From the NCBI GenBank assembly GCA_027065935.1, contig JAMONI010000095.1:1-15231 (forward strand): a stretch of DNA of 15,231 bases, given 5' to 3'. Below the pieces are notes generated by a model, which was not told the origin of the DNA, searched no databases, and was given only the letters and a program-made list of their open reading frames with translations. This stretch comes from Flavobacteriales bacterium (lineage in GTDB: Bacteria; Bacteroidota; Bacteroidia; Flavobacteriales; Flavobacteriaceae). The translations under genes and the position numbers were made by a program. Below are positions 2,623 through 7,789 of the stretch, one piece after another; position 1 is the first letter of the stretch, and every line of letters begins with the position of its first letter.

Positions 2623-2727
2623 AAAAAAGGGCAAGCGATCCGCATCACACCGCTACAACCTCCTTACCCTTGCTGCATTCCTGCCCTGGGGGATTCGGAG
2701 GGAGCTGGTTGTGCGGGACTTGCCCGG
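2623..2727 (-). ncRNA. ffs: Small SRP RNA (4.5S-type) with its terminator
   Basis: This is the signal recognition particle RNA, which binds Ffh and helps target membrane and exported proteins co-translationally. On the minus strand the apical domain reads CCAGGGCAGGAAUGCAGCAA. It contains a GGAA tetraloop (2678-2681) closed by GCA/UGC and followed by the conserved AGCA internal-loop strand that forms the Ffh-binding site. The ends close with a perfect 7-bp helix, GGGCAAG (2719-2725) pairing with CUUGCCC (2629-2635). Six U residues follow at once (2623-2628), so the closing helix doubles as an intrinsic terminator. The mature length is about 97 nt, a small bacterial SRP RNA without an Alu domain. 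The predicted start agrees with the promoter just upstream. Exact ends are inferred. Confidence 0.92.
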
Positions 2728-2729
2728 TG

Positions 2730-2760
2730 CAAATTTACAAAAATTTCCCGGCCCGAACAA
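2730..2760 (-). promoter_or_regulatory. Bacteroidota-type promoter of ffs
   Basis: On the minus strand a TTG (2758-2760) is followed by 20 bp and then TAAATTTG (2730-2737). This matches the Bacteroidota -33/-7 consensus (TTG, about 20 bp, TAnnTTTG). The predicted transcription start, 4-6 bp further on, falls on the first bases of the closing helix of the SRP RNA. The -33 box begins 3 bp after the stop codon of the upstream gene. Confidence 0.8.
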
Positions 2761-3345: not shown

Positions 3346-3373
3346 AAAAAAACGCCCGACATTGCCGGACGTT
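3346..3373 (-). terminator. Rho-independent terminator after trpB2
   Basis: On the minus strand AACGTCCGGC pairs with GTCGGGCGTT: 10 bp including two G-U pairs, with a 3-nt loop. A run of seven T overlaps and follows the 3' arm. The hairpin begins 8 bp past the trpB2 stop codon. Confidence 0.85.
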
Positions 3374-3380
3374 TTATGAT

Positions 3381-4775
3381 TCACTTTTGTTTTTCGATTT
3401 TCGGAAAACCCATTTGGTCTAAAACTTTCAAATTTTCGGCTATCTCCTCATCCGTAACGGAATAATTATCAATGGCATTACTCAAATACTGCTCGTAAGC
3501 CCCCAAGTCGATATGGCCGTGACCGGAAAGGTTAAACAAAATGGTGATTTCCTTCCCCTCGGCTTTGGCTTTGAGCGCCTCTCTAATGGTTTGCGTTACC
3601 GCATGGGTGGATTCCGGAGCCGGAATGATGCCTTCGGTACGTGCAAAGAGCATACCCGCTTCAAAACTTTCCAACTGAGGCACCGCCGAAGCTTCGATAA
3701 AACCGTCATTCAACAACTGGCTCACTATGGCGCCCGCCCCGTGATATCGCAACCCGCCTGCGTGAATGGCCGGAGGCATAAAACCGTGACCCAATGTGTA
3801 CATCGGAATAAGCGGCGTCATACCGATGGTATCGCCGAAATCGTAGCGGAATTGCCCGCGCGTAAGCTTGGGACACGAATCCGGTTCTACGGCTATAATA
3901 CGTATATCTTTTCCGCCGACAATTTTATCCCGGACAAACGGAAATGAAATACCGGCAAAATTGGAACCGCCTCCAAAACATCCGATCACCACATCGGGAT
4001 AAGCATCTACTTGCTCCATCTGCGCTTTGGCTTCCAACCCGATAACCGTCTGATGCAATAGCACATGATTCAAAACCGAACCTAACGAATATTTTGTCGA
4101 AGGATCATTAACCGCCATTTCCACCGCTTCGGATATGGCTATGCCCAAGCTTCCGGGATTACCGGGATCTTCGGCCGATATTTTCCTTCCCGTATCCGTA
4201 ATTCCGGAAGGAGAAGGCGTAACGGAAGCTTTCCAAATATTCATCATGGTTTTTCTGTAAGGTTTTTGATTGTAACTGACTTTGACCATAAAAACTTGCA
4301 GTTCGATACCGAACAGTTGAGTGGCATAACTTAAAGCACTCCCCCACTGTCCGGCTCCGGTTTCGGTGGTGATTTTCTTTACGCCCTCTTCGGCATTATA
4401 AAAGGCTTGTGCCACCGCTGTATTGGGTTTGTGGGATCCGGACGGACTTACACCTTCATACTTGTAATAAATTTTGGCCGGTGTGTCCAAGGCTTTTTCC
4501 AATTCATAAGCCCGGATAAGCGGCGAAGGCCTCCAAATTTTATAAATTTCACGCACGGGAGCGGGAATTTCCACATAACGCTCTTGCGTTACCTCTTGCA
4601 TGATAAGTGCCTCGGGAAATAAAGGCGCCAAATCATCCGGCCCGACCGGCTTCTTGGTGGCGGGATGTAACGGAGGCAAAGGTTTGTTGGGCATATCCGC
4701 CACGATGTTATACCACGCCTTCGGTAATCTTTCTTCGGGTAAATAAATTTTCTTGGAATGTGTTTTTCGGTTCAT
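3381..4775 (-). CDS. trpB2: Tryptophan synthase beta-like protein, TrpB2 type
   Basis: TrpB enzymes are PLP-dependent and condense indole with L-serine to give L-tryptophan. At 464 residues, with an N-terminal extension of about 70 residues, this is the longer TrpB2 class rather than the roughly 400-residue TrpB1 that partners TrpA. The PLP lysine is K116 in SGSHKPNTA. The substrate carboxylate loop is ETGAGQWG (138-145), and the PLP phosphate loop is GGGSN (268-272). A C-terminal [10 protein letters not shown] stretch carries the Ser near the pyridine nitrogen. No trpA or other trp gene adjoins it, so it may serve indole salvage or act with a TrpA encoded elsewhere; this is inference. Upstream lies a leader with three Trp codons and an attenuator, which independently supports a role in tryptophan synthesis. 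A terminator follows. Confidence 0.94.
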
Positions 4776-4805
4776 AATTATATGGTTTTAAGTTCGTCTC
4801 CTAAC

Positions 4806-4835
4806 AAAAAAGGCGTCCCGCAACGAGGACGCCTT
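4806..4835 (-). terminator. Attenuator terminator in the trpB2 leader
   Basis: On the minus strand AAGGCGTCC pairs perfectly with GGACGCCTT (9 bp, 8-nt loop), and a run of six T overlaps the end of the 3' arm. It lies 30 bp upstream of the trpB2 ATG and about 230 bp downstream of the ppdK stop. ppdK already has its own terminator at 5014-5043, so this one is placed to control trpB2 rather than to end ppdK. The mirror direction has no T-run. Confidence 0.85.
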
Positions 4836-4862
4836 ATATGGATTAAAGAGCGCAAAAATACG

Positions 4863-4928
4863 TTACGGGCAAGCGGAACATTCCGTTTGCCACCACCACG
4901 TGTTTTGCGTTTTAAATAACGGCTTCAA
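4863..4928 (-). CDS. Putative trp leader peptide (21 aa) with three tandem Trp codons
   Basis: The frame ending at UAA 4863-4865 encodes a peptide ending TWWWQTECSACP. The only common start codon in frame after the upstream stop is TTG at 4926-4928, giving 21 residues. There is no in-frame ATG or GTG, so the start is uncertain; ATT further upstream would also be possible. A purine-rich AGAAGG lies 2 nt before the TTG. A poor -7-like TATTATTG lies at 4951-4958 with no good -33 box. The peptide itself probably has no function: its translation would sense charged tRNA-Trp. The three tandem Trp codons just before a hairpin-and-terminator set are the main support. Confidence 0.65.
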   Translation of the reverse strand: MKPLFKTQNTWWWQTECSACP

Positions 4929-5013
4929 TACCTTCTGGTTTTTCTTGATACAATAATATGAAATATTTTCTTACTATCGAAAACGCTGTCAAAAAAAACG
5001 TTATCCATTCGTC

Positions 5014-5062: not shown

Positions 5063-7789
5063 TCATTTGTTCCTGATACGTGCTTGTGCTGCAGCCAAGC
5101 GGGCGATGGGTACGCGAAACGGCGAACAACTTACGTAGTGCAAATCGGCCCTGTGAAAAAAGTCGATGGATTGCGGATCGCCCCCGTGTTCGCCGCAAAT
5201 GCCCAACGAAATATCGGGTCGTGTTTGACGGCCTTTTTCCACGGCGGTTTTCACCAATTGTCCCACACCTTCCTGATCGAGGTGGGCAAACGGATCATCT
5301 TTCATCAAACCTTTTTCACGATAAATTTTCAAAAATTTCCCCGCGTCGTCACGTGAAAAACCGAAGGTCATCTGCGTAAGGTCATTCGTTCCGAAGCTAA
5401 AAAATTCGGCAGGTCCGGCAATCTCGCCGGCCGTGAGTGCCGCCCGGGGGATTTCAATCATCGTTCCTATTTTGAAATCGATGCGTTCGCCATATTCTTC
5501 GAATACTTTTTCGGCGGTTGCGCTTATAATTTCTTTTTGCATTTCCATTTCGGATTTCATACTCACAAGAGGCACCATTATTTCGGGAACGGCTTTTATG
5601 CCCCGCTTTTTCAAATTTAAAGCGGCTTCCAAAATAGCCCGGGTTTGCATTTCGGTGATTTCGGGATACGTGTTGCCCAACCGGCACCCCCGGTGTCCCA
5701 GCATAGGGTTAAACTCGGTTAATTCCTCCACCTTTTGTTTGATTTTTTCTACCGGAACCCCCATTACCCGGGCCATCTCCCGTTGTCCCTGTTCGTCGTG
5801 CGGAATAAATTCATGCAGGGGCGGATCCAATAATCTTACCGTCACCGGATAACCTTCCATGGCCTCGAAAATTCCTTCAAAATCGGTGCGTTGCATGGGT
5901 AATAATTTTTCCAACGCCCGTCGGCGTCCTTCTTCGTCATCGGCCAAAATCATTTCGCGCATGGCGATAATTTTATCGCCTTCAAAAAACATGTGTTCCG
6001 TCCGGCAAAGTCCTATACCTTTGGCCCCGAATTTTCTTGCCACACTTGCATCGTGGGGCGTATCGGCGTTGGTTCTTACGTAAAGTTTGGCGTGCTTGTC
6101 TGCCAATTCCATCAATTTGGCAAAAGCATCGGTCAGTTCCGGGTCCACGGTTTCTATTTTACCGAGAAATACTTCGCCCGTTGAACCGTCCAATGAAATC
6201 CAATCGCCTTCTTTGAGAAGTAAATCCCCTACTTTTATTTGGCGTTTTTTGTAATCGATTTCCAACTCGCCGGCACCGGCCACACAGGTTTTTCCCATGC
6301 CTCGTGCCACTACTGCGGCGTGGGAAGTCATTCCGCCGCGAGCGGTTAAAATTCCGTTGGCCGCGTGCATGCCGGCCAAATCTTCGGGTGAAGTTTCCAA
6401 ACGGACCAAGATAACATCTTCACCTTTCCCGGCCAGTTCTACGGCTTCATCGGCAAAGAAGACGATTTTACCGGTAGCTGCACCCGGCGATGCGGGTAAT
6501 CCTTTGGTTACAACCTTAAGGTCTTGCGCATTGTTTTTGTTGAAAACCGGATGCAACAGTTCGTCCAACTTTTCGGGTTCGACACGCATCAAAGCTTCTT
6601 CTTCGGTGAGCAAGCCTTCTTCGAGCATATCCATAGCTATTTTAACCATTGCCATTCCGGTTCGTTTACCGTTACGGGTTTGCAGTATCCATAATCGACC
6701 TTCTTGAACGGTAAATTCCAAATCCTGCATGTCTTTGTAATGGCGTTCCAATTTTTGTTGAATTTCAAACAGTTCCTTATACACTTCGGGCATCAGTTCT
6801 TCCAGTGAGGGATATTTTTGCCGCCTTTCTTCTTCCGAAATGCCTTGTAACTTAGCCCATCTGCGCGAACCTTCCAAGGTAATTTGTTGAGGTGTTCGCA
6901 CGCCGGCCACCACATCTTCGCCTTGAGCATTCACCAAATACTCGCCGTTAAATATTTTTTCGCCCGTTGCCGCATCACGCGTAAAGGCCACACCGGTGGC
7001 GGAATGATCACCCATGTTTCCGAATACCATAGCTTGCACGTTCACCGCCGTTCCCCAATCGTGGGGAATTTTGTTCAGTTCACGGTATGTGCGGGCCCGG
7101 TCGTTGTTCCAACTGCGAAATACGGCCAAAACGGCTTCCCATAATTGTTCCCACGGATCTTCCGGAAAATCTTTTCCGGTTTGCCGCTTAATAGCGTTTT
7201 TGAATTCCGACACCAAAAATTTTAAATCTTCCGTGGTCATGTCGGTATCGGATTTGTATCCTTTTTCTTCCTTGAGCTTGTCCATTATGGCTTCAAAAGG
7301 ATCGATATCTTCTTTGGACTCGGGTTTCATTCCCAATACCACGTCGCCGAACATTTGCACAAATCTCCGGTATGAATCCCATGCAAAGCGTTCGTTTCCC
7401 GTCTTTTTTGCCAACCCCTTAACGGTGTCATCGTTCAGCCCAAGATTCAATACCGTATCCATCATGCCGGGCATGGAAACCCGCGCACCCGAGCGCACCG
7501 AAAGCAACAACGGATTGTCGGGGTTGCCGAAACGCGCCCCCATTTCCGCTTCGATCATCGCTACGGCTTTTTTTACTTCGGGTTCAAGTCGTTTGATGAT
7601 TTGTTCCTTTCCGGCTTTTTCATATTCGGTACTTACTTCGGTAGTTATGGTAAATCCGGGCGGAACGGGAATGCCTATTTTGCGCATCTCGGCCAAGTTG
7701 GCGCCTTTTCCACCCAACAAATTTCTTAAGGATGCTTCGCCATCCACTCGTTCTTTTGTAAAAACATACACGCTTTTTCTTTCGTCCAT
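5063..7789 (-). CDS. ppdK: Pyruvate, phosphate dikinase
   Basis: PPDK interconverts pyruvate + ATP + Pi and phosphoenolpyruvate + AMP + PPi in the cytoplasm. It works in gluconeogenesis or, with PPi, in glycolysis. At 908 residues it has the full domain order: N-terminal ATP-grasp domain (GGKGANLAEM, 26-35, and a conserved RSGARVSMPGMMDTVLN stretch from 99), swivelling phosphohistidine domain, and C-terminal PEP/pyruvate barrel. The phospho-accepting His is H490 in GGMTSH, and T488 matches the Thr phosphorylated by PDRP regulators in plant and some bacterial enzymes. The acid/base Cys is C865 in SLGICGEHGGDP. It is monocistronic, with terminators on both sides. A near-consensus -7 element (TAACTTTA, 7804-7811) is the only promoter hint. 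Phosphoenolpyruvate synthase is less likely: PPDK has its own GGKGANLAEM N-terminus and length. Confidence 0.96.
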   Translation of the reverse strand: MDERKSVYVFTKERVDGEASLRNLLGGKGANLAEMRKIGIPVPPGFTITTEVSTEYEKAGKEQIIKRLEPEVKKAVAMIEAEMGARFGNPDNPLLLSVRSGARVSMPGMMDTVLNLGLNDDTVKGLAKKTGNERFAWDSYRRFVQMFGDVVLGMKPESKEDIDPFEAIMDKLKEEKGYKSDTDMTTEDLKFLVSEFKNAIKRQTGKDFPEDPWEQLWEAVLAVFRSWNNDRARTYRELNKIPHDWGTAVNVQAMVFGNMGDHSATGVAFTRDAATGEKIFNGEYLVNAQGEDVVAGVRTPQQITLEGSRRWAKLQGISEEERRQKYPSLEELMPEVYKELFEIQQKLERHYKDMQDLEFTVQEGRLWILQTRNGKRTGMAMVKIAMDMLEEGLLTEEEALMRVEPEKLDELLHPVFNKNNAQDLKVVTKGLPASPGAATGKIVFFADEAVELAGKGEDVILVRLETSPEDLAGMHAANGILTARGGMTSHAAVVARGMGKTCVAGAGELEIDYKKRQIKVGDLLLKEGDWISLDGSTGEVFLGKIETVDPELTDAFAKLMELADKHAKLYVRTNADTPHDASVARKFGAKGIGLCRTEHMFFEGDKIIAMREMILADDEEGRRRALEKLLPMQRTDFEGIFEAMEGYPVTVRLLDPPLHEFIPHDEQGQREMARVMGVPVEKIKQKVEELTEFNPMLGHRGCRLGNTYPEITEMQTRAILEAALNLKKRGIKAVPEIMVPLVSMKSEMEMQKEIISATAEKVFEEYGERIDFKIGTMIEIPRAALTAGEIAGPAEFFSFGTNDLTQMTFGFSRDDAGKFLKIYREKGLMKDDPFAHLDQEGVGQLVKTAVEKGRQTRPDISLGICGEHGGDPQSIDFFHRADLHYVSCSPFRVPIARLAAAQARIRNK

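Follow-up and report, generated by a model that had tools for sequence, protein, structure and literature searches.

The window analysed here, a stretch of 15,231 nt from a Flavobacteriales bacterium, raises the question of why a stand-alone trpB2 gene should be preceded by what looks like a tryptophan attenuator. Such attenuators are textbook controls of biosynthesis, and the original prediction had proposed one at positions 4806-4928, its location ahead of an isolated trpB2 being the unusual part. The proposed UGG run and the positions given for hairpin, antiterminator and terminator, together with the distance to trpB2 (ATG at 4775, 30 nt downstream of the element), are all correct in the sequence (Table 1), and the UAA stop of the leader frame does lie inside the antiterminator strand (TAA 4865-4863 within 4869-4861). 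A conserved frame with tandem Trp codons, an overlapping 1:2 hairpin, a competing antiterminator and a terminator ahead of the first gene are all present, and both the conservation of the leader in nine of nine genomes of the genus and its folding support the attenuator reading. Judged from its sequence, the element is very probably an attenuator of transcription of the classical leader-peptide type, with charged tRNA-Trp as its signal and the one-gene unit trpB2 under its control.

When tryptophan is plentiful, the ribosome would pass the three UGG codons, reach the UAA and cover segment 2, which would lead to the terminator. When it is scarce, the ribosome would stall at the UGG codons and cover segment 1; segment 2 would then capture the loop and 3' arm of the still incomplete terminator and, with the antiterminator formed, RNA polymerase would continue into trpB2. 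The product would join external indole, presumably taken up by the cell, to serine (or phosphoserine) to give tryptophan, a route proposed because trpA, trpC and trpD are absent from the host.

Table 1. Features of the trpB2 locus (positions in the window).
Feature	Position	Strand	Remarks
Putative -7 promoter element TATTATTG	4951..4958	-	22 nt upstream of leader start
Leader peptide frame, peptide MKPLFKTQNTWWWQTECSACP	4863..4928	-	TTG start, 21 codons, TAA stop
Tandem UGG (Trp) codons x3	4890..4898	-	kept in 9/9 genus genomes
1:2 (pause/protector) hairpin	4868..4891	-	90% of 90 cells paired; double-sided changes in 2 pairs
Antiterminator strand (segment 2), contains UAA stop	4861..4869	-	pairs with 4817-4825 in 87.7% of 81 cells; double-sided changes in 2 pairs
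Leader TAA stop codon	4865-4863	-	
Antiterminator partner (segment 3)	4817..4825	-	terminator loop + beginning of 3' arm
Intrinsic terminator, U6 run	4806..4835	-	10-pair stem (scan) 4835-4810, U run to 4806
trpB2 (TrpB-like PLP enzyme), stand-alone	3381..4775	-	NF009057 731 bits, TIGR01415 650 bits, both over cut-off
Terminator-like hairpin directly 3' of trpB2	3349..3375	-	consensus match

The upstream neighbour, by eye a pyruvate phosphate dikinase gene, has its stop at 5063. A box starting with TA and ending with TTG occurs at the -7 position in all nine sequences of the genus (by eye); the box of the window, which we take to resemble the Bacteroidota consensus, would mark the transcription start.

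The trpB2 gene and missing tryptophan-pathway genes

The trpB2 product scores only 137.5 bits against the trpB family TIGR00263, for which the cut-off is 392.45, and the PDB chains closest to it in sequence are 6hul_B, 4qys_B and 6hte_B. The gene looks like a one-gene unit since a terminator-like hairpin follows it (3375-3349). One frame further on, a Bacteroidales_small_SRP RNA was detected (RF04183, 106.5 bits; 2625-2732, minus strand); the same RNA also occurs downstream of trpB2 at locus L111 (3551-3658) and the neighbourhood is therefore partly conserved.

The pathway search covered TrpA, TrpC and TrpD. None of the nine genomes of the genus has a TrpA match over the cut-off (two weak matches lie below it), and neither TrpC nor TrpD was found in any of them, each search being positive in 14 of 14 controls; six of the nine genomes reach 90% completeness or more, with contamination no higher than 5%. 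These absences are the likely reason for the isolated trpB2 that the original prediction had pointed out, and because of them trpB2 is probably an indole-salvage gene in this genus, a role of which we are less sure than of the attenuator. In Thermococcus kodakarensis, TrpB1 and TrpB2 are cited for indole salvage (PMC11085991).

The relation between leader and pathway was surveyed in 91 trpB2 loci of known trpA status, namely the window and its eight genus mates, 48 loci of the genome_contigs set, six loci from the family and 28 from the class. Of the 80 genome_contigs loci, 49 were checked for trpA, comprising all those with a leader and a chosen part of those without; the other 31 include the records titled as other phyla, apart from one Ignavibacteria record (L014) that belongs to the set. 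One genome_contigs locus, L002, has an upstream sequence identical to that of L114, and the two were counted once. When leaders were read by hand, trpA was missing in 28 of the 31 loci with a Trp-rich leader versus 11 of the 60 without. An automatic call of W-rich frames outside long frames gave 26/30 versus 13/61 (Fisher 2.5e-9) and, when a terminator was also required, 21/22 versus 18/69 among the others (Fisher 4.7e-9); the rows behind both values are not independent, nine leaders coming from one genus and five from another. After these two genera had been collapsed to one row each, trpA was missing in 16 of 19 loci with a leader and in 11 of 60 others (Fisher 3e-7). The class sample, the only part not chosen by hand, gave 7/7 versus 9/22 (Fisher 0.008 for the hand-read and 0.044 for the automatic call), five of its seven leaders belonging to one genus. 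On a quick TrpB2 tree the hand-read leader changes eight times and yields six independent pairs, on average 4.1 agreeing and 0.0 disagreeing (median p 0.125, range 0.0625-0.625); the automatic call yields eight pairs, with 3.1 agreeing and 0.2 disagreeing (median p 0.25). Counts thus show a strong association between leader and missing trpA; on the tree it points one way only and is not significant.

For the hand-read set, L015 and L182 were removed as they have no hairpin, and three were added: L018 and L040, hidden behind spurious frames, and L017, which like L012 has a single Trp codon. By the automatic rule, the W-rich frame lacks a terminator at L048, L062, L012 and three of the five f44 loci; at L012 a terminator is visible by eye. 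Similar W-rich peptide ends are seen at L048 and L062, both from Bacteroidales (WSWWRSSRAANTIS and WAWWPASPAAIL), where no U-run terminator was found and where the leaders are perhaps a translational version. Five genomes of one genus (loci L168-L172; G411, G340, G189, G312 and G389), without trpA and trpC, carry short W-x-W frames (GWGWVW, RGWVWR) ahead of trpB2, with no terminator by rule in three of the five.

TrpC, looked for in 41 survey genomes, is absent from 20 of the 22 with a leader; among those without a leader it is absent from all 11 that lack trpA and present in all eight that have it. Of four exceptional loci with a leader, three (L012, L017 and L031) have trpA and the fourth, L062, combines leader and trpC with no trpA. 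Since 11 leaderless loci also lack trpA, the leader is dispensable for a salvage-like state. At four leaderless loci (L026, L178, L179 and L180), from genomes without trpA and trpC, trpB2 lies, by eye, close behind a frame on the same strand, and these may perhaps be a second form of trpB2 without leader control; the TrpB2 of L026 and L178 are identical.

A leader that attenuates trpB2 as proposed might also serve an enzyme with another PLP reaction or substrate than indole salvage. Such an enzyme would fit the NCBIfam name, which is TrpB-like and not TrpB, as well as the three genomes in which leader and trpB2 coexist with trpA: L031, which also has trpC, and L012 and L017 (genomes G503 and G505), which have a trpA match and no trpC match and are either incomplete or hold a partial pathway. 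Control by Trp codons and the absence of pathway genes, however, both indicate a function in tryptophan supply, and we regard another reaction as unlikely.

Conservation of the leader in the genus

All nine genomes of the genus, that of the window included, have trpB2 (80-89% identity of the eight other products to that of the window) preceded by a leader with WWW and a terminator, the reading frame and stop position being unchanged throughout. The start codon is TTG in the window and G107 and ATG in the other seven genomes, with 10 to 13 codons from the start to the first Trp. All nine peptides end with Cys-Pro-stop, with Pro as the eighth residue after the last Trp. Slow release at a Pro-stop and the arrest peptide TnaC are both known, and a TnaC-like peptide in which free tryptophan slows release at Cys-Pro-stop, so that the ribosome on segment 2 forces termination and charged tRNA is not the main signal, would account for this ending. 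Against it, the leaders listed from outside the genus do not end in Pro, and the codons TGC CCG TAA double as the antiterminator strand, so that RNA pairing alone accounts for their conservation; an arrest peptide as the main sensor thus appears improbable when compared with the attenuator.

The leader RNA folds at -41.4 kcal/mol (z-score -2.96), a stability equalled or bettered in one of 200 shuffles, and the antiterminator helix of the window (9 bp, including one G-U) was matched in three of 200 shuffles of the spacer, a control that gave 0 to 153 of 200 at other loci. Of 103 real upstream regions of trpB2, 25 were called as having a W-rich leader with a terminator; four of these calls (L034, L036, L037 and L067) were rejected and discarded, being located inside coding genes. 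A plain intergenic terminator with an accidental Trp-rich frame and a constitutive trpB2 is very hard to credit since, although terminator-like hairpins are common (0.7 expected by chance per 450 bases) and the leader of the window starts with TTG, the frame, WWW and stop position are conserved in every genome of the genus, none of 306 dinucleotide-shuffled upstream regions yielded leader plus terminator, and a hairpin between a promoter-like box and trpB2 would then presumably do no more than silence the gene.

With regard to the helices of the proposed attenuator, the nine sequences pair at 36-54% in slid registers of the 1:2 helix as opposed to 90% in the true one, and at 25-37% as opposed to 87.7% (88%) for the 2:3 helix. 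Among 500 column shuffles of the 1:2 helix, the real value was attained by none for the covariation score, by two for cells with double-sided changes, by 50 for pairs with such changes and by 41 for the percentage paired; the score itself (0.172) is slightly over that of one slid register (0.158). The corresponding figures for the 2:3 helix are 61, 61, 28 and 61 of 500, and covariation in the antiterminator is suggestive only because shuffles often attain the same values. The terminator was compared sequence by sequence, the 5' arm of the window and G107 being one column out of register in alignments A1 and A4 and the window fragment one base off in A2. At its seventh pair the window and G107 have T-A, four genomes (G100, G101, G102 and G106) A-T, and G104 G-C, whereas G103 and G105 show an A.C mismatch. 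G104 also carries an A in place of the third G of the antiterminator partner; this A faces a U both in segment 2, where the pair changes from C-G to U-A, and in the terminator arm, by which both exclusive helices are preserved. G103 and G105 combine a mismatch in the stem with an altered terminator loop and an antiterminator of just 6 bp, the uninterrupted helix measuring 6-10 bp across the nine leaders. The comparison of related upstream regions originally proposed as a check thus bore out the UGG run, frame and stop position in full and recovered the three helices with some double-sided changes, the antiterminator falling short in two genomes.

A covariance model built from the nine leaders (R1) matched each of them at trpB2 (E 3e-19 to 4e-15), as it must by construction. 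Elsewhere in the nine genomes it gave no convincing site: the hits that follow have E values of 0.003 or weaker, and the best of them is antisense to the trpB2 site.

Predicted alternative folds and switching

In folding without a ribosome, the 1:2 hairpin and the terminator form in eight of the nine leaders, G104 forming the antiterminator instead. With segment 2 masked by a ribosome at the stop codon, the terminator forms in all nine. A stall at the second Trp codon was modelled by masking the first 18 nt; for a transcript ending three bases past segment 3, the antiterminator is then the lowest fold in eight of nine leaders, and in G106 it wins at no stage tested. For the complete transcript it is still the lowest in four of nine, including the window, where the antiterminator fold reaches -20.1 kcal/mol and the terminator alone, in the stop-codon case, -16.8 kcal/mol. 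The remaining five leaders would need kinetics for antitermination at full length.

The original prediction had cautioned that a small overlap between antiterminator and terminator stem makes their exclusion partial. The overlap with the 3' arm is indeed small, two bases or, with the closing C-G pair counted differently, three, and the partner otherwise consists of terminator loop; that exclusion would be partial is weakened by the folding and by the same layout in all 17 loci over the cut-off of RF01692, the Bacteroid-trp family. A formed antiterminator engages the terminator loop along with the first bases of the 3' arm. Its own loop then encloses the 5' arm, and no linker separates it from what is left of the 3' arm, so that by geometry the two helices could hardly coexist. 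Scored by the longest uninterrupted helix, the loop plus 3' arm is the best placement in 9/9 genus leaders, 6/15 other trpB2 leaders and 20/26 RF01692 loci (3/9 of those below the cut-off). A measure by duplex energy was dropped, as it allows bulges and so mixed 5' arm, loop and 3' arm.

Relation to known attenuators and to Dysgonomonas operons

The E. coli type of trp attenuator has Trp codons followed by 1:2, 2:3 and 3:4 helices. The window shares this order and logic, whereas its segment 3 is the terminator loop and 3' arm and not the 5' arm, and a single gene lies downstream; the corresponding family, Trp_leader (RF00513), has no match in the window. Another trpB2 leader, that of L159 (genome G399; MRNNTTYTNLSWWCTSWRQSCWW), has a terminator and scores 33 bits with RF00513, for which the cut-off is 41.

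Bacteroid-trp is listed in a table of cis-regulatory motifs of Bacteroidetes (PMC2864571). Like the window, it is a Trp leader of Bacteroidota with a UGG run, hairpin, antiterminator and terminator, and like the genus leaders it has an antiterminator that takes the terminator loop and 3' arm; it differs in that trp biosynthesis genes follow, whereas the window has trpB2 as the single downstream gene and trpA, trpC and trpD were not found in its genome. Whether the leader belongs to this family had been left open by the original prediction, and by the family model the answer is negative: RF01692 (cut-off 49 bits) gave no match at E <= 10 on the window or on 4780-4990 alone, and none at E <= 1 on the eight other genus loci. 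All Rfam families, T-box included, were also run on the whole window and on 4780-4990; at the leader both scans gave sub-threshold matches only, each of the 15 listed for 4780-4990 being below its own cut-off. In the class, RF01692 is over its cut-off in 17 of 395 genomes (stricter filters), and among 26 RF01692 loci downstream genes were read for the 12 forward ones (14 are reverse); these 12 precede frames that are TrpE-, TrpB1- or TrpD-like by eye rather than by family search. Several RF01692 loci are matched by R1 (best 37.5 bits, E 1e-5), as is the trpB2 leader of L069 (33.5 bits), on account of which the genus leaders and RF01692 may be distant kin; antisense matches of R1 also occur, some with E as low as 0.01, and runs of Trp codons with terminators could alone explain the cross-matches.

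Attenuators with UGG codons have been predicted ahead of actinobacterial trp operons, including trpB2A of Corynebacterium diphtheriae (PMC1262725). That operon contains trpA and stands beside a second one, trpB1EDGC, which also has a candidate attenuator (PMC1262725), whereas the trpB2 of the window stands alone. In Chlamydia trachomatis, trpRBA resembles our proposal in being a tryptophan-responsive control of an indole-salvage tryptophan synthase; unlike the window it has no leader peptide and relies on the repressors TrpR and YtgR, in what has been termed trans-acting attenuation (PMC9378776, PMC7755916). In the literature searched, with most subscription papers outside the search, no leader attenuator is described on a stand-alone trpB2 of Bacteroidota. 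The kind of attenuator is already known, and what is new is its target and setting, a lone trpB2 where trpA, trpC and trpD are absent. An attenuator on a probable salvage gene, in organisms seemingly unable to make tryptophan from scratch, would link ribosome-mediated sensing to indole exchange in communities, and a Trp-rich leader ahead of a lone trpB2 could serve as a genomic marker of candidate indole dependence.

A possible route to this arrangement is seen in Dysgonomonas. Three regions (L221-L223, around L050, L004 and L009) have in order a WWW leader, a terminator, trpB1, trpE, trpG, trpB2 and trpD, with trpC, trpF and trpA further downstream (genes assigned by Pfam in L221, by eye in L222 and L223). 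In Dysgonomonas sp. 520 (L064), which has neither trpA nor trpC, a similar leader lies immediately ahead of trpB2. The leaders of all four align with one another; L223 (57.3 bits), L222 (50.8) and L064 (49.2) are over the RF01692 cut-off and L221 is below it. In the TrpB2 tree, L064 and L050 are sisters. The simplest account of these sequences is decay of an operon around leader and trpB2, the regulator having apparently survived the loss of most pathway genes. For the genus of the window, no operon ancestor was found.

On about even odds, the decay of trp operons in Bacteroidota would repeatedly end with leader plus trpB2, the biosynthetic genes being lost and the Trp attenuator and the indole-condensing subunit retained. 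The pair would then mark users of their neighbours' indole that sense their own tryptophan before salvage, and in the genus of the window release may in addition be slowed by the Pro-stop at the end of the leader peptide. The three Dysgonomonas trp operons themselves hold both trpB genes, with trpB1 as first gene and trpB2 in the interval between trpG and trpD.
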